Positions 483 to 27,599 of a stretch of DNA of 49,374 nt are shown piece by piece (position 1 is the stretch's first letter; each line of letters starts with the position of its first letter). The translations under genes were made by a program, and so were the position numbers. A model generated the notes under the pieces. The model was not told where the DNA came from. It saw only the letters and a program-made list of their open reading frames with translations, and made no database searches. The DNA is from Bacteroidales bacterium (GTDB taxonomy: Bacteria > Bacteroidota > Bacteroidia > Bacteroidales > P3): NCBI GenBank assembly GCA_017449975.1, contig JAFSYK010000076.1, positions 1-49,374 of the forward strand. The letters are read 5' to 3'.

Positions 483-527
483 AATATGAATGATTTGAGT
501 TAGAAAATGTATTTAATTAGATACTCG

Positions 528-535
528 CAAATGTA
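528..535 (-). promoter_or_regulatory. Bacteroidota -7 box for the glutamate dehydrogenase gene
   Basis: Reads TACATTTG on the minus strand, a perfect match to the Bacteroidota TAnnTTTG element, about 46 bases before the ATG. A clear TTTG -33 element is not obvious; the upstream stretch is very A/T-rich. Confidence 0.6.
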
Positions 536-640
536 AAGAAAAAAACTTTAATAAAAAAACTTTTTTATTTAGAAACTGTTTAAAATTAATTCAATGTATT
601 TCTTGAAGCATCTGAATTGGTGAATTTCGGAAATGGTGAA

Positions 641-758
641 GTCGAGAAGATATGAAGATGTGAAGATGTGAAGTCATGAAGCTTAACATCTTAACACCTT
701 AGCATCTTAACAACATTACACTGCCAGCCGCTTTTTAGTTTTTACCTTTTAGTTTTCA
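641..758. repeat. Short tandem-repeat tracts in the intergenic gap
   Basis: The gap between gdhA and the barrel gene holds a degenerate GAAGATRTGAAG tract (about 643-680), a run of CTTAACATCTTAACACCTTA type (about 679-712), and a TTTTTAGTTTTTACCTTTTAG tract near 731-758. The last kind recurs near 19104, 23565 and 31353. No coding sequence is seen. Confidence 0.6.
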
Positions 759-765
759 AAAACCG

Positions 766-1536
766 CTAAAAAGAAATATTCAGTCCCAATGTCGCCAGCG
801 TGGTGTGCAGCTTGTTTCCGTCGAAGAAGCCGTTGTTTGTATAGGAGCCGTTCGTTCCGTCGTTGATGGTGGTCCGTGTGGTCAATACCACCTCGCTCTT
901 GCCGAGGTCGTAGTAATAGAGCGAGAAGGAGATGTTTTTCTTGAGTTGAAAACCGATGCCCACGCGAAACATGAAGGTGTTGGCCGATTCGTAATCGAAG
1001 ACAAGCTCTATGTTATCGCTCTCACATTTGTATTTGGTGATGTAGCGGAAATTCAGGCCGGCCTCACCCTCGAAGAAAAACGCCTGCTCCTCGCGCAGGG
1101 GTATCTTGTATCGCACGCCCGCCATGATGGGGATGTTGAAATATTTGGGTATGCGTTTCGTCATGAAACCGCCGCCGTATGTCTGATCCAGATAGTCGCT
1201 AACGTCGTCCAAATAATGTGAGGCGACGCTACTGAGCCAGGTGTAGAGGAAGTCGCCGCGCAGGCAGAAATACATATTGTCCGTGGCCCAGGGAATATAC
1301 GTGCCCACACCGATGCCAACGCCCATGTCGGCAGCTCCATTTTCGCCATAGTCAAACACTGCGATGTCGCTCGCACCCGTAGATTGGTTATAGTTGCCGT
1401 CGCCGAAATCTCCCAACGGAAGAATAAAACCCATGTTGATTTCCCAAGTCCGCTGTCCCACGGCAGTCGTCGGACAGAAGAGTGTTGTCAAAAGTAAAAA
1501 TGCGGCGGAAAGAAGCAGTGCTTTTGTGGTTTTCAT
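766..1536 (-). CDS. Outer-membrane beta-barrel protein (intact copy)
   Basis: 256 residues. A signal peptide (MKTTKALLLSAAFLLL, cleaved near AVGQ-R) is followed by alternating polar and hydrophobic strands rich in Gly, Tyr and Phe, and the chain ends TLGLNISF with a C-terminal Phe, as expected for a barrel inserted by the Bam machinery. It resembles the PorT-like or OmpW-sized barrels of Bacteroidota, but no specific function can be named. Its 5' end is the parent of the truncated copies at 2402-2680 and 4138-4374 and of the remnant at 4956-5062. A TAATTTTG box lies about 110 bases upstream. Confidence 0.85.
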   Translation of the reverse strand: MKTTKALLLSAAFLLLTTLFCPTTAVGQRTWEINMGFILPLGDFGDGNYNQSTGASDIAVFDYGENGAADMGVGIGVGTYIPWATDNMYFCLRGDFLYTWLSSVASHYLDDVSDYLDQTYGGGFMTKRIPKYFNIPIMAGVRYKIPLREEQAFFFEGEAGLNFRYITKYKCESDNIELVFDYESANTFMFRVGIGFQLKKNISFSLYYYDLGKSEVVLTTRTTINDGTNGSYTNNGFFDGNKLHTTLATLGLNISF

Positions 1537-1645
1537 GATGCTGATTGTTTGATGAAAAGCTGATGATGTTGTTGTGCCTTAAAATAAATATAGGATATCA
1601 ACCCATAAATATTATACGTTAATCCTTAAACGTTTCTTCATGTTG

Positions 1646-1653
1646 CAAAATTA
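1646..1653 (-). promoter_or_regulatory. -7 box for the outer-membrane barrel gene
   Basis: TAATTTTG on the minus strand matches TAnnTTTG and implies a 5' leader of roughly 105 bases for the gene at 766-1536. The truncated copies do not carry this upstream region. Confidence 0.5.
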
Positions 1654-1731
1654 CATCTTTTTACCGTTTCTCTTGTCTTCAAAACTCTTTTTTCATGTAA
1701 TAGGTTGCCCTGTAAAAGGAGAGATTGTTTA

Positions 1732-2364
1732 CTAATGACTTACCTCTTTCCCCGATGCGAGGAGTTTCTTGTAGTTGTTGTAGAAAAGCATATAGCGTTC
1801 AAGGTTGGGGCCGTGATATCGTTCGATGTCCAATACCCGCTCAATATGACGCAATCCCTCTTCTTTTCGCCCAGCAAGATATAGCATTACGGGATAGTAG
1901 TAGTCTCTTCGATCGTTTGAAATGCCTTTCCGTAGTTCTACAATGTTAAGCATTGTGTTAAGGTCTTTCATTTTTTCGTAATAGGGGAATGCATATTTTT
2001 GTATTGACTCCATCATATTATCTACGTATGGAGTGCAGGGCATTGCTCGGTTCATACGCCATTGAATATATTTTTGTTCGGGCATAATAAAGCCAATTTG
2101 GCCTCCTATAATAAAAGTCTCTATGTCGCATTCTCTTTCTGTTAACTGAGCATAGAGTCGGTTGACAGAACCAATAGATACTCCTACAAAAATATCCATG
2201 ATGAACTCAGAACTGTATGAATGAAGACCATTTGCGTGGATGGATAAATAGTTGTTCCCGTCATTCGAGTAGACGTGAAAATATTTTCTCCGTTTGAAAT
2301 ACATTTTTTTCAACCGCTCACGGATCTCTTTGTGGACGATTTGAGAATAACTAGGTATAGACAT
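1732..2364 (-). CDS. DUF4304-like cytoplasmic protein, possible immunity protein
   Basis: 210 residues with no signal peptide or membrane segment. The N-terminal half (KKMYFKRRKYFHVYSNDG, then an IHANG strand, then IMDIFVGVSI) resembles the DUF4304 pattern of a charged helix, a FKR[KR]-x-F turn and two beta strands. The C-terminal half is helical (YYPVMLYLAGRKEEGLRHIE). DUF4304-type proteins often occur near polymorphic toxins as presumed immunity proteins; that role is inference here, since no toxin gene is visible. The gene is AT-rich compared with the core genes and sits directly downstream of a truncated barrel stub. Confidence 0.7.
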   Translation of the reverse strand: MSIPSYSQIVHKEIRERLKKMYFKRRKYFHVYSNDGNNYLSIHANGLHSYSSEFIMDIFVGVSIGSVNRLYAQLTERECDIETFIIGGQIGFIMPEQKYIQWRMNRAMPCTPYVDNMMESIQKYAFPYYEKMKDLNTMLNIVELRKGISNDRRDYYYPVMLYLAGRKEEGLRHIERVLDIERYHGPNLERYMLFYNNYKKLLASGKEVSH

Positions 2365-2383
2365 ACTTTATTATCTAAATAAG

Positions 2384-2412
2384 GGTTAAAAACCTGCACT
2401 TTCAGTGCAGGT
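2384..2412 (-). terminator. Rho-independent terminator after the second barrel stub
   Basis: A 9-bp perfect stem (ACCTGCACT / AGTGCAGGT, 2392-2412) with a 3-base loop is followed on the minus strand by TTTTT. It overlaps the end of the truncated gene at 2402. Confidence 0.6.
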
Positions 2413-2680
2413 CACTTTCAATTTCCGTGGCCCAGGGAATATACGTGCCCACACCGATGCCAACGCCCATGTCGGCAGCTCCATTTTCGCCATAGTCAAA
2501 CACTGCGATGTCGCTCGCACCCGTAGATTGGTTATAGTTGCCGTCGCCGAAATCACCCAACGGAAGAATAAAACCCATGTTGATTTCCCAAGTCCGCTGC
2601 CCCACGGCAGTCGTCGGATAGAAGAGTGCTGTCAAAAGTAAAAATGCGGCGGAAAGAAGCAGTGCTTTAGAAGTTTTCAT
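2402..2680 (-). pseudogene. Truncated 5' copy of the outer-membrane barrel gene (stub 1)
   Basis: 92 codons. The first 85 residues match the intact barrel at 766-1536 with only a few substitutions (for example MKTSKALL for MKTTKALL), up to GTYIPWAT. The frame then leaves homology and stops within EIESDLH. The break is abrupt, in the CCGTGGCCC sequence, which suggests a recombination junction rather than gradual decay. The product would be an exported fragment that cannot form a barrel. Confidence 0.85.
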
Positions 2681-2776
2681 GATGCGGATTGTTAATTAAT
2701 GATTTGAGAATATAGGCTTACTTTACCGTAAAAAACATATCAATTATCATACACGTTATGCCTTAAACATTAAACT
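2681..2776 (-). repeat. Duplicated spacer between lipoprotein gene and barrel stub (copy 1)
   Basis: This spacer is nearly identical to 4375-4474: both contain GATTTGAGAATATAGGCTT, the CCGTAAAAAACAT stretch and TTATGCCTTAAACATTAA. The duplication therefore covers lipoprotein 3' end, spacer and barrel 5' end as one block. Confidence 0.85.
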
Positions 2777-3232
2777 TTATTTAAAAGGATACTGAAAAGT
2801 GAAGTCACAACGTTTCAGGCTGTCTACTCCGATGTCTAACAGAGATATCTGTCCAAGTATATTATAACTCAACAACAAAGAGTCAGCAGTACAATAGAGC
2901 GTTTGTTCAGGAGTGACAGTGTCGAAGATATAGATTGGGCCCAGGTCATAAGGAATCACGGTGCTGGGATGTGACAATTTCCATTCAATATAATCTTCTA
3001 TGCAGTCTCTCCCCCACGCAATTTCGACATATGCTACCTCGCCAGGATACTTTACTGATGAATGCCTCATGCCGAATTTTTCAATTCCATGATCATCCCC
3101 CCCCCATACTTGTCCAACCTTTATTGGGATTTCGGATGCATTTGTTATATAAATTTTTTGGTGGCAAGTGGATTTGTCTCCACATGACGCCAGGACCAAG
3201 GCCAGCGTAGCCCATAAAAACCAATTTTTCAC
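2777..3232 (-). CDS. Lipoprotein A, variable-middle paralog
   Basis: 151 residues starting at a GTG codon; the in-frame GTG gives a proper lipoprotein signal peptide (MKNWFLWATLALVLASC, lipobox LASC). The first 17 residues and the last 35 or so (SLLLSYNILGQISLLD to the end QYPFK) are nearly identical to the paralog at 4475-4942. The middle is diverged although a common pattern persists (TCHxxIY, the IPI block, the DC-E-EW block, DT-x-x-P-x-QT). Function is unknown. The setting, next to DUF4304-like and helical-repeat genes, would fit a lipid-anchored immunity protein, but this is inference. Confidence 0.75.
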   Translation of the reverse strand: MKNWFLWATLALVLASCGDKSTCHQKIYITNASEIPIKVGQVWGGDDHGIEKFGMRHSSVKYPGEVAYVEIAWGRDCIEDYIEWKLSHPSTVIPYDLGPIYIFDTVTPEQTLYCTADSLLLSYNILGQISLLDIGVDSLKRCDFTFQYPFK

Positions 3233-3245
3233 AACTTGAGATGAT

Positions 3246-3400
3246 TTAATAAGTGGTTCTATAATAAAATCCTAAATACAATCCTTCGACCAAAGATCCA
3301 ATGGGATTAGAGCCATACCATGTCATATAATCATACCATGTCCCATTCGCCTTTTTATACTGCAAAGTTATAGTGGATACTGAAAAGTGAAGTCACAACG
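3246..3400 (-). pseudogene. Fused 3' fragments: lipoprotein tail plus orphan C-terminus
   Basis: On the minus strand 3400-3368 encodes RCDFTFQYPL and a stop, a third copy of the lipoprotein 3' end. A few bases later an unrelated open frame without a start (3360-3246) encodes a C-terminal segment containing NGTWYDYMTWYGSNPIGS and ending LYLGFYYRTTY. The last 70 or so bases of this second piece recur at 4956-5024. Both pieces look like leftovers of deleted genes. Confidence 0.65.
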
Positions 3401-3429
3401 CTATGAGAATATGTTGGTGTGGTTATGGT

Positions 3430-3951
3430 TTATGATTGTTGTAATGCCTCCAGTTGCTCGACCAATGATTTCCATTTTTTTATCTCGCCTGTAAGAAATG
3501 GAAAAGGAATATGGTAATACTTCTCTCTTTCGGCTAAAAGTCTCCGAGCATATTCGTATTCATCTTTCTTGCGTTGTTTTATGATAATCTCGGCAATGCC
3601 CATTTCACATATGGAATCATTGTACTTTGCGTTAGGGTGATTATTGTTATATGTGTTAACAATCTCGTAATGTTCCCGTGCCTTATCATACAGCCCATGC
3701 TTCAAATAGTAGTCGGCTAAATCACAGTGAGCGAACATGACATCCAGATTCGCATACGGATACTCGTCAAATAATTTGTTGGTAAGCATTAATGCAGACG
3801 GGAAGTAGTCAGAACTAGCATATAACAATAGCCCCGCTTGAATTCTGAGATACTGGGGTGCGTTCCATTTTCTTGCCCTTGAAAGTTTCGTAAAGAACAT
3901 GCTTTCAATCTCTGCATTCCAAGTTGTTTGTCGGTACCAGTCTTGTTTCAT
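3430..3951 (-). CDS. Helical-repeat (TPR-like) cytoplasmic protein
   Basis: 173 residues with no signal peptide. The chain is almost wholly helical; the middle carries a TPR-like pair (HCDLADYYLKHGLYDKAREH, then a second helix pair from NAKYNDSICEMGIAE). The N-terminus (MKQDWYRQTTWNAEIE, then NAPQYLRIQAGLLL) is a pattern I associate with small Bacteroidota proteins found in gene arrays near toxins, but I cannot name a family with certainty. AT-rich; the ATG follows an orphan reading-frame end by 10 bases, as if the pair had been translationally coupled. Confidence 0.72.
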   Translation of the reverse strand: MKQDWYRQTTWNAEIESMFFTKLSRARKWNAPQYLRIQAGLLLYASSDYFPSALMLTNKLFDEYPYANLDVMFAHCDLADYYLKHGLYDKAREHYEIVNTYNNNHPNAKYNDSICEMGIAEIIIKQRKKDEYEYARRLLAEREKYYHIPFPFLTGEIKKWKSLVEQLEALQQS

Positions 3952-3961
3952 GGTTTATTTG

Positions 3962-4147
3962 TTATGGTATTTTTTTTATTACTTTATGTGGTATAGTCTC
4001 TAATGATTTTATTAAACCGGGAGATAGCGTTGTCCCATTTGCTTGCCGCACGTAAAGGATAAACATATAGTCGTTTGTCCGGCAATACAGAATAAAATCT
4101 TTAATTTGCCAAGTGTTGTCTAAATATCTTACATTTTTTACCTCGTA
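3962..4147 (-). pseudogene. Orphan 3' coding fragment, 61 codons without a start
   Basis: Directly after the barrel-stub junction the minus strand has an open frame (YEVKNVRYLDNTWQIKDFIL at its left end, then a TNDYMFILYV strand, ending HKVIKKIP and a stop at 3962). It has no plausible start codon and is out of frame with the stub at 4138-4374. It looks like the C-terminal end of a lost gene joined to the barrel leader. No family recognised. Confidence 0.45.
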
Positions 4148-4374
4148 CCGATGCCAACGCCCATGTCGGCAGCTCCATTTTCGCCATAGTCAAACACTGC
4201 GATGTCGCTCGCCCCCATAGATTGGTTATAGTTGCCGTCGCCGAAATCACCCAACGGAAGAATAAAACCCATGTTGATTTCCCAAGTCCGCTGCCCCACG
4301 GCAGTCGTCGGACAGAAGAGTGTTGTCAAAAGTAAAAATGCGGCGGAAAGAAGCAGTGCTTTTGTGGTTTTCAT
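4138..4374 (-). pseudogene. Truncated 5' copy of the outer-membrane barrel gene (stub 2)
   Basis: 78 codons. Residues 1-76 equal the intact barrel except for QSMGA in place of QSTGA; after GVGIG the frame ends at once with TR and a stop. The junction is a few codons earlier than in the stub at 2402-2680, so the two truncations are separate events or were trimmed differently. Confidence 0.85.
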
Positions 4375-4474
4375 GATGCGGATTGTTAAATTAATGATTT
4401 GAGAATATAGGCTTTCTTTACCGTAAAAAACATGTCAATTACCATACACATTATGCCTTAAACATTAAGTTCCC
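4375..4474 (-). repeat. Duplicated spacer between lipoprotein gene and barrel stub (copy 2)
   Basis: Near-identical to 2681-2776. Together with the flanking lipoprotein 3' end and the barrel 5' end it makes a duplicated block of several hundred bases. Confidence 0.85.
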
Positions 4475-4942
4475 TTATTTAAAAGGATACTGAAAAGTGA
4501 AGTCACAACGTTTCAGGCTGTCTACTCCGATGTCTAACAGAGAAATCCGACCAAGTATATTATGATTCAACAACAAAGAGTCAATAGTACTGTAAAAGGT
4601 TTGCGCAGGATGAACCGTATCGCAGATAAATATTGTCATCATTAGTGAATAGTAGCTGTCGCGATGTGACAAAGCCCATTCCACCTCTTCCTCTAGACAA
4701 TCATTCCAGCCTGCCATTTCAACTTCTTCTATCTGATATGGATGAACTATTTTGTTTTTCGAATCGCTCAAGGTACATATTACCGAATCGGTAAAGCGGT
4801 ACACTGTTATAAGGCATACTCTAATCGGAATATCGGACATGTTTTTGACATAAATCCTCTTGTGGCATGTCGATGACTCATTTTTTCCATCACATGACGC
4901 CAGAACCAAGGCCAGCGTAGCCCATAAAAACCAATTTTTCAC
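4475..4942 (-). CDS. Lipoprotein B, variable-middle paralog
   Basis: 155 residues from a GTG start, lipobox LASC. Shares its signal peptide and C-terminal region (NILGRISLLDIGVDSLKRCD and the QYPFK end) with lipoprotein A at 2777-3232 almost exactly, while about 100 central residues differ strongly. Conserved landmarks in the middle (STCHKRIYV, IPIRV, DCLEEEVEW, DTVHPAQT) show that the two share a fold. Exported and lipid-anchored; function unknown. Same GTG start and same upstream sequence (TTAAATCATCTCAAGTT) as paralog A. Confidence 0.75.
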   Translation of the reverse strand: MKNWFLWATLALVLASCDGKNESSTCHKRIYVKNMSDIPIRVCLITVYRFTDSVICTLSDSKNKIVHPYQIEEVEMAGWNDCLEEEVEWALSHRDSYYSLMMTIFICDTVHPAQTFYSTIDSLLLNHNILGRISLLDIGVDSLKRCDFTFQYPFK

Positions 4943-4955
4943 AACTTGAGATGAT

Positions 4956-5062
4956 TTAATAAGTGGTTCTATAATAAAATCCTAAATACAATCCTTCGAC
5001 CAAAGATCCAATGGGATTAGTAACAATGTAGCAGAAAGAAGCAGTGCTTTTGTGGTTTTCAT
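4956..5062 (-). pseudogene. Chimeric remnant: barrel leader joined to orphan C-terminal sequence
   Basis: From the ATG at 5060-5062 the minus strand encodes MKTTKALLLSATLLL, the start of the barrel signal peptide, then runs directly into the sequence shared with 3246-3315 (the NPIGSLVEG region), but out of frame. It is the shortest of the four barrel 5' copies and marks the upstream end of the mosaic. Confidence 0.7.
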
Positions 5063-5296
5063 AGTGCATGGGGGTTTATTTGCAAAAATACTTTATTTTT
5101 TACACTCAATAATTAAGTATAAGTGAAAAACGGTGATATGGTATTTTGAGACACTGAAAAAATAATACGATACAATTGATCTTTTTGAACACGGATATCT
5201 CGGATTGAACGGATATTTGCTTGCCTATCGGCAAGCGTTGCCGTAGGCATTATCCGTATTATCCGTTAAATCCGTGTTCGTTCAACAAGTTCATGG
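5063..5296. other. Intergenic region with an imperfect hairpin
   Basis: No gene seen. Contains an imperfect inverted repeat (TGCCTATCGGCAA / TTGCCGTAGGCA, 5222-5249) flanked by CGGATAT and ATCCGT words pointing both ways (about 5192-5275). Such ATCCGT-rich inverted sequences are common between genes of Bacteroidales; a role is not evident. Confidence 0.4.
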
Positions 5297-5477
5297 ATTC
5301 GAATCCGCCAGGCGTGCCCTTAATGGGGCACGGCGCACCGCGGGGGGTGCGCTTCTCCGCTTCGCTATCGAAAGCAGCCACTGGCAATGCAATTATAGAC
5401 AATATATTTCCCAGCTATTTTGCGTGCAAAATGCGCTCAATAATTAAATTCTATTTAAGGAATTCCTATATGGCGGT
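5297..5477 (+). repeat. Tandem repeat, copy 1 (181 bp)
   Basis: Begins ATTCGAATCCGCCAGGCGTG and ends just before the next copy at 5478. It includes a GC-rich half (GGCACGGCGCACCGCGGGG) and an AT-rich half ending in GGAATTCCTATATGGCGGT. The short inverted repeat TTTTGCGTGCAAAA lies within it. Confidence 0.9.
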
Positions 5478-5725
5478 ATTCGAATCCGCCAGGCGTGCCC
5501 TTAATGGGGCACGGCGCACCGCGGGGGTGCGCTTCTCCGCTTCGCTATCGAACATTGCCACTGGCAATGCAATTATAGACAATATATTTCCCAGCTATTT
5601 TGCGTGCAAAATGCGCTCAATTTTGCGCTTATTATGCGTGCAAAATGCGCTCAATTTTGCGCCTATTATGCGTGCAAAATGCGCTCAATAATTAAATTCT
5701 ATTTAAGGAATTCCTATATGGCGGT
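5478..5725 (+). repeat. Tandem repeat, copy 2 (248 bp, internally expanded)
   Basis: Same unit as 5297-5477, with one G fewer in the G run and with two extra 34-bp sub-units of the TTTTGCGC-TATTATGCGTGC type inserted, which accounts for the 67-bp length difference exactly. The sub-units repeat the GCAAAATGCGCTCAA word three times in a row. Confidence 0.9.
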
Positions 5726-5818
5726 ATTCGAATCCGCCAGGCGTGCCCTTAATGGAGCACGGCGCACCGCGGGGGGTGCGCTTCTCCGCTTCGCTATCGA
5801 AAGCAGCCACTGGCTGCT
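5726..5818 (+). repeat. Tandem repeat, copy 3 (partial, 93 bp)
   Basis: The GC-rich half of the unit only; it ends after AAAGCAGCCACTGGC, just short of the stop codon of the alpha/beta hydrolase gene at 5823. The array therefore abuts the 3' end of that gene. Confidence 0.85.
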
Positions 5819-5822
5819 TTCT

Positions 5823-23551: not shown

Positions 23552-25982
23552 GCACATTATAACTCTTAGTTTCTACTTTTTAGTTTTTACCTTTCCAACG
23601 TTCGCCTGCGGACCGGCCTATTTCAGTGCTGCCGACAACCGCATCTACCGCATTCTGCCACCGCTTTGGCAAGCCCCGGAGGATCCGGCGGAAATGAGCT
23701 TCGCAACCCGCAACATCCTGCTGTGGGGCAAGCAGACGGGCTGCCGCGACACCGCCGCCATCCGAAATGCCATCTATCAAGGCTCGCTGGCCGACTGGGA
23801 GACGTTGTACAAGAAATATGTACTGGCGCAGCAGATCGACGCCGACAGGCACAACAAGGCGTTCTTTGGCAACGGTTTTGTCAAAAGACTGCAAGGGTCA
23901 CACCCCGACAAGGAAGGCATCCGCATCCTCTATTGGTCGAAGCTGTACGAAAGCATCCGCAACGCACAGCGTTCGCCGTGGTACTACAACAGCCACGTCG
24001 AGACAGACGAGGTGCGCCAGCTGCGAACGATGTACAAAGCGTTGCAGCGTTACAAGCCCTCCCCCAAGTATGCCGACCGCTACACCCTGCTCACCAGCAA
24101 ATGCCTGTGGGCGCTGGGCGAGGACAGCGCCAACGTCGCGCTGTGGGACCAGTGCAAGCAACGGCTGAAGAAAGACATCTTCTACGACGAGGTCATGGAG
24201 TATGTGAGTCGCAGCCTCAGTGACATGGGGCGCGACGACGAGGCCTACGCCCTCTATCGGAGCACCCTCAAAGAGATTGACAAGATACCCTTCAACGCCT
24301 CGCTGTCGGAACGTTTGCGGGCAATGCTGCGCATCTGTCCCAACTCATACAACATTGCAATCCTGCTGCAGGAATACCTGACCGACCTCGACCGTGATTT
24401 GGCTTCTGCGTACCGCTTCAATGAGGACGAAACGAAACCCATGTTGGCGGTGGCGCGTGAGGCGTTGGCCAATCCCAAAGTGCGCAACAAGGCCATGTGG
24501 CGCTATGTGGCGGCCTGCACACACGATTACGAGGGCCATCCCGACAGGGCGCTGGCCATGCTGCGGGGTGCTGAGCAGGGAGGCGGCGATGCCTTTCTGC
24601 GGCAATCCGTTCGGGTGCTCACCTTCTACCTCCGTGCCCGTAGCGCGTCCATCGACGACGCATTTGAGCAATATGCCATCGGCGAGGTGAAATGGATGGA
24701 CAGCGAGGCGTTGCGCGAATGGCGCCAACTGCCCGACGATATCCGTCAGAACATCAGCCATGTCGCCAGCTGGGGTACAACCAATGTCCTCAACAAGCTA
24801 TACTTTTATGCCGCCTTGCGACGCGTTATGCTGGAGGACAGCGTGGGGCTGGTCTGGCGCTTGGCTGCCGCGGGCCGCGACGTGCGTGCGCTGCAGATGG
24901 CCAACGTGGCCGACAATCATATTATGATTTTTAGCCGCAACAGCACATTGGAAAAAGTACGCTACACCAACGACAGCATCTATCGTGTCTGGTACACCGG
25001 CAACGACCAAAAGTACCATGGCCAGTGGATCAGCTCCCTGTCCGACACACTCGCGCTAGATGGTCATCACTACTATTTTGACGCAGTGCGATGCAACTGC
25101 CACGACTACAGCAACGGGCTTTTTGCGGTGGCCGACAGGATGAGTGCCGGAGCACTGGCCGAATACTGCCGGCGACTGGAGCATCCATTAGACCGGACAG
25201 ACCGCTGGTTCAACACCCGCAGCTACACCAACGGCGACTACTGGCAGGACATCGTCGGCACGCACTATCTGCGTGAACGGAAGTACGCTGCCGCCGTCAA
25301 ACACCTGCGTCGGGTCTCACCCAGTTACCAGCAGCGCATGAACGTGTGGTTTGACATCGACCCCTTCAGCATAGACCACAGTGTCGCCAACCACGACACC
25401 ACCCATTACAAGCTGCGTTTTGCCCAAAAGATGGATTCGCTGCAACGCGTCATGCTCCACGACAGCGATGCCGACCGTCGCGGCCTGGCCATGCTGGAAT
25501 ACACCATCGGACTGGATAACAGTTTCAACATGTGCTGGATGACCACCTCCTATCAGAAAGGCTGGACAGGAGCGAACCTGACCGACATCGACGAAACGGT
25601 CTATGCCGAAAAAGCCCAATCGGTAGTCAAGCAGCTGCGGAAGAAAGCCTTCGCCACCCTCCGCTCCGACGATGCCAAAGCCCGGGCCTACGCCCGCATC
25701 GGCCACTACAGTAAAATCTGGAAGCGCTACGCCCACACCCCCACCGGCCAACACCTCGCCCTGGTCTGCGACCGTATGGACCTGTACCAATCGCCCGTCG
25801 CCAAGGCAGAAACCAGCATCCAACAGCCAGCAGAGGACTGCACCCTCACCGCCCCCCAAGCCTACCCCCTCCTGCAGCACTACCTCCTCCCCACCGCCTA
25901 CGAGCGGTACAGGGCGAAGGAGGGTGTAAGAACCTGTCACCGGAGTACTACTCGTAGCGCATCATATTGGCGAGTTGAATGA
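23520..25982 (+). CDS. Large exported protein of unknown function
   Basis: 820 residues. After MKRSKLSTTVRHIITLS a hydrophobic stretch FYFLVFTFPTFACGP forms the signal region; the DNA for it is a TTTTTAGTTTTTAC-type repeat also found between genes. The rest is rich in helices with many Arg, Tyr and Trp and probable helical repeats (EAYALYRSTLKEID, HPDRALAMLRGAEQGG, RERKYAAAVKHLRRVSP). No domain recognised. Large ACGP-starting exported proteins of this type are familiar in Bacteroidota. The last 20 or so residues run into the convergent abiEii gene (35-base overlap) and may be non-native, so the true C-terminus could have been lost. Confidence 0.75.
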   Translation: MKRSKLSTTVRHIITLSFYFLVFTFPTFACGPAYFSAADNRIYRILPPLWQAPEDPAEMSFATRNILLWGKQTGCRDTAAIRNAIYQGSLADWETLYKKYVLAQQIDADRHNKAFFGNGFVKRLQGSHPDKEGIRILYWSKLYESIRNAQRSPWYYNSHVETDEVRQLRTMYKALQRYKPSPKYADRYTLLTSKCLWALGEDSANVALWDQCKQRLKKDIFYDEVMEYVSRSLSDMGRDDEAYALYRSTLKEIDKIPFNASLSERLRAMLRICPNSYNIAILLQEYLTDLDRDLASAYRFNEDETKPMLAVAREALANPKVRNKAMWRYVAACTHDYEGHPDRALAMLRGAEQGGGDAFLRQSVRVLTFYLRARSASIDDAFEQYAIGEVKWMDSEALREWRQLPDDIRQNISHVASWGTTNVLNKLYFYAALRRVMLEDSVGLVWRLAAAGRDVRALQMANVADNHIMIFSRNSTLEKVRYTNDSIYRVWYTGNDQKYHGQWISSLSDTLALDGHHYYFDAVRCNCHDYSNGLFAVADRMSAGALAEYCRRLEHPLDRTDRWFNTRSYTNGDYWQDIVGTHYLRERKYAAAVKHLRRVSPSYQQRMNVWFDIDPFSIDHSVANHDTTHYKLRFAQKMDSLQRVMLHDSDADRRGLAMLEYTIGLDNSFNMCWMTTSYQKGWTGANLTDIDETVYAEKAQSVVKQLRKKAFATLRSDDAKARAYARIGHYSKIWKRYAHTPTGQHLALVCDRMDLYQSPVAKAETSIQQPAEDCTLTAPQAYPLLQHYLLPTAYERYRAKEGVRTCHRSTTRSASYWRVE

Positions 25983-26775
25983 AGTAATCGTTGCTCCAGA
26001 TGTCCAAGTCGTGCGGGTTCTTGACGAAAGGTCGCACGTCGGCTTTCACTTGGTTGATGTCCGCCTGGGTTAATCTTTCTTTAAGCAGTTCAACAAACTG
26101 AGCCTTATCCAGCTCCATTCCGTTGAACTCCTTGATTCGGACCTTTAGATGGTCGAAATTCAGCGGCACGCCATTGCGTACATACCACTCGAAATCGTAC
26201 CAGTCGCGCCCTTTGACACGATGCTTCCACTGGCGGAACGCCAGCGCATGCATCTTGCCCGCAAAAAGGTTCGACAGGGTCACGCAGCGCGTCATAAACG
26301 AAAATGGCTGCAGCAACAGCCTTTCCTCGGTATCGAACTGCAGGGGTGGCAGGGTGTCAACCTCAATCTTGATTTTCACACTCTTCTCTGTGCGGAACGA
26401 GAGGTTGTACACATCGGTGTTATCCTTTAGAAAAGCCGACTCCACCTTGCCGAAATGCTGTTTGTCCTTGCGGGTAATCTCCACCTCGCGCCCCAACAGC
26501 CTGCACTCGTCGACGATGGCAGGGAAATATTTTTCCAGCGTGAAGTTCTCATCCTTCCGCAACAGCGTGAAATCCATGTCCTCCGAATAGCGCTCCAGCC
26601 CGTGGAATATCCGCAGGCAGGTGCCGCCATAGAAAGCTGCCTCGCTGAAGAAACCACCTCGGTAGAGTCCGCATAGCACCACCTGCTGCATCACCTCGTA
26701 GGTGGCGTTACGACGGGCGTCGGCCGTGTCCATCGGGTAACGAGACAGCATCTGTTCAAAAATGTCCATGCTCAT
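25948..26775 (-). CDS. AbiEii-type toxin, nucleotidyltransferase
   Basis: 275 residues, within the family range. The nucleotidyltransferase signature is intact: FYGGTCLRIFHG (near 48-59), then GLERYSEDMDFTLL with the paired acidic residues, and a later KIKIEVDTLPPLQ strand with the third acid, followed by LFAGKMHALAFRQWKHRVKG with the conserved basic helix and RDWYDFEWY. AbiEii-family toxins use a nucleotide to modify and inactivate tRNA or other targets; with AbiEi they form a toxin-antitoxin pair first known from phage abortive infection. Located 14 bases downstream of the antitoxin gene. Confidence 0.9.
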   Translation of the reverse strand: MSMDIFEQMLSRYPMDTADARRNATYEVMQQVVLCGLYRGGFFSEAAFYGGTCLRIFHGLERYSEDMDFTLLRKDENFTLEKYFPAIVDECRLLGREVEITRKDKQHFGKVESAFLKDNTDVYNLSFRTEKSVKIKIEVDTLPPLQFDTEERLLLQPFSFMTRCVTLSNLFAGKMHALAFRQWKHRVKGRDWYDFEWYVRNGVPLNFDHLKVRIKEFNGMELDKAQFVELLKERLTQADINQVKADVRPFVKNPHDLDIWSNDYFIQLANMMRYE

Positions 26776-26789
26776 ATCGATTTTTTGTG

Positions 26790-27440
26790 TCAGGAATCAC
26801 CCTTTGGGGCATCGCCAGCCGCCAGCTGGATGAGATAGGAAATCATCTCGCTCTTTACCGATGCGGTCCGACGGCACTGCTCCAACAGTTCCGTGTCGAA
26901 ATCCCGCAGGGCGTCCATATCGAAACGCAAGTCCGACTCAAGATAATTCCTCAAACTTTTGGCATTGGGCGTATTCACACCGGATGTCTTCAACAGCAAG
27001 TCGCACAAAGCCTTTTCGGGACTGGCAATAAGGTAACTGTCGTTGTCCTCCTGCATCTGACGGATACCGATAGGGAAATAATCGACGGAACACGACTGAT
27101 AAGAGAACCTGCCGAGCGGCGTATCGAAACTGCGGCTGTGCTTGATGGTCATCGACTGGGTCTCGTACACTCGTTCAGGGATGAGTCCATAAAACCGCAG
27201 CGCCGTCAGCATACTGACATACGAAGGACCGTATAGGTGATTGGCCACAAGGGCCGGCAACACCGTTGCGCCATCCTCCGCGCTGCGCACATAAAGACCG
27301 CGCTTCAATCGGACAATGCGCCCCTCCTGCTCCAGCCGCCGTGCCTTGTCGTTGATTTGTCGTGTTTCAGGGTACAAAGTCGCCAGCACAGAGGGAAGGA
27401 AAGGAATGTTACCAACTTGATACAAAGCCTCTTTCACCAT
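26790..27440 (-). CDS. AbiEi-type antitoxin and autoregulator
   Basis: 216 residues from ATG 27440 (MVKEALYQVGNIPFLPSVLA). Earlier in-frame ATGs at 27461 and 27545 lie at or before the predicted transcription start and are unlikely. N-terminal winged-helix domain (PETRQINDKARRLEQEGRIV, RLKRGLYV) is followed by the AbiEi C-terminal domain (GPSYVSMLTALRFYGLIPER, ASPEKALCDLLL). Family members neutralise the toxin and repress their own promoter by binding inverted repeats; a matching inverted repeat is present at 27480-27516. Confidence 0.88.
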   Translation of the reverse strand: MVKEALYQVGNIPFLPSVLATLYPETRQINDKARRLEQEGRIVRLKRGLYVRSAEDGATVLPALVANHLYGPSYVSMLTALRFYGLIPERVYETQSMTIKHSRSFDTPLGRFSYQSCSVDYFPIGIRQMQEDNDSYLIASPEKALCDLLLKTSGVNTPNAKSLRNYLESDLRFDMDALRDFDTELLEQCRRTASVKSEMISYLIQLAAGDAPKGDS

Positions 27441-27463
27441 ATTAATAAAACTTATCCGCATTG

Positions 27464-27471
27464 CAAATATA
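27464..27471 (-). promoter_or_regulatory. -7 box for the AbiE operon
   Basis: TATATTTG on the minus strand, a perfect TAnnTTTG, 23 bases before the chosen ATG. Confidence 0.6.
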
Positions 27472-27479
27472 TAAAATTC

Positions 27480-27516
27480 CGTACAGAAAACCGAGTTTTT
27501 GTCGTTTTTCTGTACG
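27480..27516. promoter_or_regulatory. Operator-like inverted repeat upstream of abiEi
   Basis: CGTACAGAAAA (27480-27490) is the exact reverse complement of TTTTCTGTACG (27506-27516). The pair lies just upstream of the -7 box and would cover the -33 region, the position expected for AbiEi self-repression. Confidence 0.7.
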
Positions 27517-27599
27517 AAATTTTGCAAAAGCAGTATAAAATTCAATATGTTTAGGCAGCCATTCCCTTGTAATCATAGCCAAGCATGCGCATTTGAGCC

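Follow-up and report, generated by a model that had tools for sequence, protein, structure and literature searches.

What does it mean when truncated copies of one outer-membrane barrel gene alternate with small intact genes, all read in the same direction? The question is raised by an island at about 483–5822 of the window, the whole stretch of 49,374 nucleotides (nt) analysed here (contig JAFSYK010000076.1 of assembly GCA_017449975.1, Bacteroidales bacterium, GTDB lineage P3, forward strand 1–49,374). The host is a rumen-type bacterium, and all genes of the array are on the minus strand. We found C-terminal remnants of toxins ahead of three of the four small genes, and the island probably represents a series of orphan immunity genes that was acquired from elsewhere, has partly decayed, and was left after Rhs toxins, which kill by contact, had been displaced or deleted. 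This reading is preferred because the toxin tails fit the genes carried behind them and because the families of these genes follow Rhs toxins or toxin tips elsewhere. For comparison, 121 genomes of the genus were used, own genome counted in; L numbers denote fetched loci and G numbers genomes (L091 is from G044, L092, with L042, from G030, L081 from G041 and L082 from G077).

The toxin tails, 21 to 60 codons long, stand out of frame in front of three of the four putative immunity genes. Scar 1 (4956–5020) is the very end of an Rhs-type toxin tip (21 codons, ending GFYYRTTY, and the stop) and precedes lipoprotein gene 1. Scar 3 (3246–3362) holds the final 38 codons and stop of the same tip and precedes lipoprotein gene 2; scars 1 and 3 are copies of one tail, 99% alike. 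In L086 a displaced Rhs tip lies ahead of lipoproteins of this family, and its end aligned with the tail of scars 1 and 3; so did a tail in L084 that lies 27 nt upstream of a lipoprotein gene. The two alignment scores were reached by 0 of 2000 shuffles each. Scar 2 (3962–4144), the final 60 codons and stop of a Tox-REase-7 tip, is out of frame with a 78-codon stub of the barrel gene and lies ahead of a gene of 173 amino acids (aa). It matched PF15649 (Tox-REase-7) with an E-value of 3.3e-9 and 37.3 bits (cut-off 25) over profile positions 43–82 of 84; identities were 52% to the terminal part of an Rhs tip in L087 and 43% to that of an Rhs toxin in L090. The sections of PMC3482391 available to us give GxxxE and IxD as the motifs of Tox-REase-7. 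We take scar 2 as a remnant of this family because both motifs should fall in the lost N-terminal half. A preliminary description of the locus had called the toxin not visible and had proposed profile searches of the orphan C-terminal fragments. The first statement does not hold, since C-terminal toxin remnants are present in the array, and the profile search identified the stretch ahead of the 173-aa gene as the C-terminal half of Tox-REase-7. No complete toxin tip was found in the array, the tails lacking most of the toxin, and no Rhs core was detected in the window at E≤1e-5. Nor is there an Rhs-core fragment ahead of the tails, as in displaced Rhs cassettes; barrel 5′ ends occupy that place.

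The 173-aa gene (3430–3951, G+C 39.3%) encodes a putative immunity protein against Tox-REase-7; in L087 and L090 its relatives come immediately after tips of this toxin family. The family is present in 12 of the 121 genomes, own included, and an Rhs core was found in the loci of five of the 11 other genomes (G030, G053, G041, G084 and G044). The protein had been described as a helical repeat, with which a TPR_2 match is consistent; this match is weak (E 0.0035) and under the cut-off. Tables in PMC3482391 pair Tox-REase-7 with all-alpha HEAT-repeat immunity proteins, among others. In L089 a barrel-like open reading frame (ORF) follows the 173-aa relative at the contig edge, with an E-value of 2.7e-4 that is too weak for use.

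Lipoprotein 1 (4475–4942, 155 aa, G+C 39.5%) and lipoprotein 2 (2777–3232, 151 aa) belong to one family of putative immunity lipoproteins. Relatives at E≤1e-5 were found in six other genomes, and the loci fetched from three of these genomes (G041, G105 and G038) contain an Rhs core. A displaced Rhs tip is directly ahead of a relative in L086, and Rhs is also present in loci L081 and L085. Another family of lipoproteins, with a near-constant ending KMWPPYGTYD and otherwise variable, was observed near Rhs loci or lipoprotein clusters (L083, L085, L086, L091, L092 and L098) and is possibly a second family of immunity lipoproteins.

The putative immunity protein of 210 aa (1732–2364, G+C 39.3%) belongs to a family seen in four of the 121 genomes, own included. 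In G044 (L091) its relative comes directly after a protein of 2016 aa with SpvB, RHS repeats (PF05593) and TIGR03696, and in G030 (L092) after a shortened Rhs fragment whose toxin end is that of L091; in G078 it was seen merely as a contig-edge piece. Relatives thus adjoin an Rhs toxin or tip in two of the three other genomes with a match. The name "DUF4304-like" given to this protein proved weak: the window protein did not match DUF4304 (PF14137) at E≤1, and two homologues stayed below the cut-off of 23.2 bits (13.0 and 12.9 bits, E 0.1 and 0.11).

Altogether an Rhs core was present in seven of the 14 fetched loci with relatives of the carried genes and in none of 58 control loci taken at gdhA and the neighbouring hydrolase gene. 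The Rhs-core model was built from seven sequences out of five loci, and those five are among the seven positive loci. That the carried genes are of an immunity kind, as had been suspected, is supported by their relatives behind Rhs toxins or displaced tips in the genus and by the toxin tails ahead of three of them here.

Read along the minus strand, the array begins with a leader-like start (5062), followed by tail 1, lipoprotein 1, a spacer, the 78-codon barrel stub, tail 2 and the 173-aa gene; then come a 26-nt copy of a lipoprotein 3′ end, tail 3, lipoprotein 2, a spacer, a 92-codon barrel stub, a hairpin, the 210-aa gene and the intact barrel. This agrees with the anatomy described before: one intact barrel with two 5′ copies, a pair of lipoprotein genes and two small genes for cytoplasmic proteins, every one of them on the minus strand. 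The intact barrel gene (766–1536) encodes 256 aa and has a G+C content of 50.8%. The 92-codon ORF (2402–2680) follows the barrel 5′ end for 86 codons (8 of 258 nt differ) and is foreign after that, while the 78-codon stub (4138–4374) matches the barrel for 77 codons (6 of 231 nt differ). The identity of about 97% over 86 and 77 codons is far beyond chance. The leader-like start (5021–5062) comprises 14 codons similar to the barrel leader (88% over 49 nt), joins the toxin tail out of frame, and is clearly less similar to the barrel than the other 5′ copies are. In the proposed alignment of the barrel 5′ ends, the junctions were placed at barrel codons 14, 77 and 86. A fourth barrel copy reduced to its leader had been supposed at the first of these; the leader-like start is there, and it may be a barrel copy, the beginning of the toxin gene that was lost, or the leader of a different exported gene.

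The duplicated spacer was borne out: the copy separating lipoprotein 1 from the 78-codon stub (4389–4468) and the one separating lipoprotein 2 from the 92-codon stub (2694–2773) are 95% identical over 80 nt, and the spacer ahead of the intact barrel is much less similar to both. On another contig of the own genome (C84; L004, 17029–17081), a stretch of 53 nt resembles the spacer that precedes the intact barrel (window 1583–1634; 79% identity, E 7e-4). Between the 92-codon stub and the 210-aa gene lies a terminator-like hairpin with five T (2388–2413, z −4.57), which was not picked up by a consensus terminator scan. With this hairpin and T run upstream, the 210-aa gene may therefore need its own promoter. 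The motif TAnnTTTG, which we take to be a promoter element of this phylum, occurs 20 nt upstream of the first leader (5083–5090, minus strand) as a candidate promoter element of the array, and again upstream of the intact barrel (1646–1653). Its presence by itself is no proof of a promoter; the motif is enriched across the whole window (30 seen against 15.0 expected, 30 being reached in 0 of 100 shuffles).

The barrel protein matched OMP_b-brl_2 (PF13568) weakly (E 0.0033, 17.9 bits, cut-off 27) and NCBIfam outer_TDE1717 at E 1.4e-4, under the cut-off of that model. A scan of genome contigs confirmed no close relatives. Among 100 of the 121 genomes of the genus the best foreign matches were 31–36% identical, with a weak match of some kind in 93 of the 100, own included, and across 191 genomes of the family the own genome alone passed E 1e-30. 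Around barrel relatives no Rhs core was found in five loci (L094–L097 and L099), whose neighbourhoods looked ordinary.

The two units of the array are not plain copies of each other. A block of 130 nt, covering the preceding tail and the start of the lipoprotein gene, is 99% alike between lipoproteins 1 and 2, and the 3′ 161 nt are 86% alike, with a diverged middle; in total 87 of 150 aligned codons specify the same residue. Along the alignment of the units, tail and signal peptide are identical in 80 of 80 columns (141–220), the middle in 15 of 40 (341–380), and the region near the lipoprotein 3′ end in 40 of 40 (621–660). In the middle, pS is 0.67 and pN 0.43 (synonymous and nonsynonymous sites). 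As plain duplication would not yield such a pattern, recombination or gene conversion at the flanks is indicated, and we judge from these alignments that recombination across the shared flanks of the lipoprotein genes is what happened. The exact 26-nt copy of the lipoprotein 3′ end (3375–3400) is a trace of another lipoprotein copy.

Contig C2 of the own genome (L093:11800–13100) carries a further 210-aa-like gene paired with a 173-aa-like one, with no toxin alongside; the 210-aa-like gene of this pair is frameshifted in an A-run near the start. Behind the pair, an additional 210-aa-like start ends after about 11 codons. The 173-aa and 210-aa genes of the window differ from these paralogues mostly at synonymous sites (pS 0.73 and 0.76, pN 0.26 and 0.29, respectively).

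These data bear on the alternative that a tandemly duplicated operon of lipoprotein and barrel has simply decayed, with unrelated genes trapped in it and no defence function left, which we regard as improbable. It would account for two units with flanks of 95–99% identity, both with a truncated barrel copy, and for several scars with stubs and tails out of frame and the frameshifted 210-aa paralogue on C2. Against it, all four carried genes are open despite the loss of the toxins, their families follow Rhs toxins elsewhere and the tails fit them, and the lipoprotein middles are saturated in contrast with flanks of 95–99%, unlike in a plain duplication.

The surroundings of the island argue for its acquisition. 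The hydrolase gene beside it was matched in 109 of the 121 genomes, own included, and the site was fetched from 58 other genomes; 49 of these stretches contain both the hydrolase gene and gdhA, and in the other nine gdhA is outside the stretch. The gap between the two genes is less than 500 bp in 38 of the 49 relatives, 145 bp in the nearest one (G031), and 987–7434 bp in the remaining 11, two of which were looked into (L150 and L151) and contain other genes. The barrel, the lipoproteins and the 210-aa and 173-aa proteins had no match at E≤1e-6 in any of the 58 stretches. The comparison with related genomes that had been suggested thus presents a sporadic island, absent from the corresponding site in the relatives examined and foreign to that location. 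The G+C contents of the four immunity genes (39.3, 39.3, 39.5 and 41.9%) contrast with about 51% in the barrel and its stubs and 55% in the window, so the array and the barrel may differ in origin. Between the island and the hydrolase gene (5297–5814) we observed three copies of a G+C-rich repeat of 89 nt and four copies of a 34-nt unit, neither of which was found elsewhere in the fetched loci.

Similar scars were found in relatives, on other 5′ stubs. In L082 (G077), 63 codons of an exported gene, which in L091 is located ahead of Rhs, are followed by about nine toxin-end codons resembling the L084 tail and by a lipoprotein gene. In L081 (G041) an Rhs-core stub stands immediately ahead of a 173-aa relative with no tip between them, and in L042/L092 (G030) an Rhs stub is fused to the last part of a nuclease tip ahead of a 210-aa relative. 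The arrangement of a 5′ stub, little or no toxin and an immunity gene therefore recurs in three genomes, in cases that look independent. Since these scars use other stubs, the barrel leader need not be special and may merely have adjoined the break.

The preliminary description had proposed, as a hypothesis, that the barrel leader is the repeated homology of a cassette array. In a working store of this kind the barrel 5′ end would serve as constant homology, like the Rhs core or CdiA, behind which toxin–immunity tips are exchanged. The mosaic units and the barrel-like 5′ end upstream of three of the four immunity genes, in their own units, would suit this idea, which we nevertheless hold to be highly improbable: no complete tip is stored and none stands intact after any barrel 5′ end, the junctions fall out of frame at varying barrel codons (14, 77 and 86), the scars of three genomes use other stubs, and the Rhs core is missing from all five loci of barrel relatives.

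If the island is an orphan-immunity array, as we favour, its immunity genes would be expressed and protect the cell from neighbours still armed with the toxins. The targets of the 210- and 173-aa proteins would be nucleases in the cytoplasm, and that of the lipoproteins a toxin at work in the envelope. With less confidence, we suggest that each toxin was lost by displacement or deletion, the upstream end of the loss lying inside an exported gene, here the barrel, and the downstream end inside the last codons of the toxin, so that a usable promoter would remain upstream of the retained immunity gene. The array and its mosaic lipoproteins could then have arisen, also with less confidence, from repeated events of this kind together with tandem duplication and with recombination across the shared flanks of tail, lipoprotein and barrel. 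A more specific version, which we consider rather unlikely, makes the barrel 5′ end a reusable upstream anchor: incoming DNA would recombine across the lipoprotein–spacer–barrel flanks and end illegitimately in the tail of the resident toxin, disarming it, keeping the immunity gene and supplying promoter and leader. Were this true, repeated turns of such a ratchet would leave nothing but immunity genes where a toxin array once stood, with the mosaic lipoproteins as immunity alleles exchanged between fixed signal-peptide and C-terminal flanks.

Several points weigh against the orphan-immunity interpretation. Seven of the 14 loci with relatives of the carried genes are without an Rhs core, and only L081 and L092 are independent finds, the model having been built from the other five positive loci. 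Searches of Pfam, NCBIfam and PADLOC assigned none of the four proteins to a named immunity family. Of six sequences tried against the lipoprotein-side tail, two resembled it (p 0.07–0.80 for the rest), and tblastn gave it modest E-values of 0.027 and 0.007. No toxin tail was recognised ahead of the 210-aa gene in the frames examined, and the related pair on C2 is likewise without one. The selection signal from the paralogues is rough because synonymous sites are near saturation. Finally, the own assembly is 95% complete, so a toxin could sit in the missing part.

In the assembled part of the own genome, scar 2 is the sole match to PF15649. Rhs repeats occur on one other contig, and a query with the G044 toxin found that contig alone, at 28–34% identity. 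On contig C68 (L104) of the own genome, a large Rhs protein precedes a displaced Rhs tip (588 aa) and then small ORFs; this is apparently an intact toxin–immunity locus of another kind. Far from the island, at window 25948–27545, two neighbouring minus-strand ORFs resemble an AbiEii/AbiEi pair, as judged by eye.

Orphan immunity arrays are already known, and the transition from an armed to an unarmed locus has so far been mostly inferred. Most junctions of the present array are still legible as a 5′ stub, the last toxin codons and the matching immunity gene, and the intact toxins and scars of related genomes allow toxin excision with retention of immunity to be compared directly in rumen-type Bacteroidales. 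Three candidate immunity families (210-aa, helical repeat and lipoprotein) are offered with proposed partner toxins. The scars indicate how protection can outlast the weapon.

Among known systems, the rAID and AID-1 loci of gut Bacteroidales (PMC12247911) are likewise composed of short, co-oriented orphan immunity genes of low G+C, and three of the four genes here come under the 41% G+C that the consulted part of that source sets for two or more co-oriented short genes. That the island is itself such a locus is barely credible, even with these genes and the conserved spacers ahead of two stubs, since no ORF within 483–5822 is long enough for a tyrosine recombinase and the toxin tails link the genes to Rhs toxins in place. 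None of these ORFs is longer than the 256-aa barrel, and the rest of the window was read by eye, with no recombinase scan there. The array also differs from rAID and AID-1, as far as that source describes them, in its remaining toxin tails, in the barrel stubs between genes and in having no recombinase in the island. With the poly-immunity loci of PMC3482391, in the portion available, it shares several unrelated immunity families side by side and a helical-repeat gene after a Tox-REase-7 tail, although its proteins match no Pfam immunity family. Imm65 is the sole lipoprotein immunity protein in that collection, going by the same portion, and the lipoproteins here gave no named-family match. 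The displaced Rhs tips of the genus (L086, L091 and L092) resemble it in order, the end of each tip coming before its own immunity gene and several such cassettes standing in a row; the window array lacks the Rhs core and the larger part of each tip, and has barrel 5′ ends in their place. Among literature titles and abstract openings we found no description of barrel stubs within an immunity array, which is no proof of absence. The type VI secretion system (T6SS) immunity arrays of Vibrio cholerae (PMC5361080) also carry serial orphan immunity genes with effectors displaced or trimmed to their 3′ end. According to the text of that paper available to us, an incoming module replaces the effector while the old immunity gene stays, and homology-facilitated illegitimate recombination is proposed. 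The present array differs from what is described there in its Rhs-type toxins, its Bacteroidales host, the lack of a current effector at its head and the barrel 5′ stubs at its junctions. This displacement model is the closest in print to the history proposed here.

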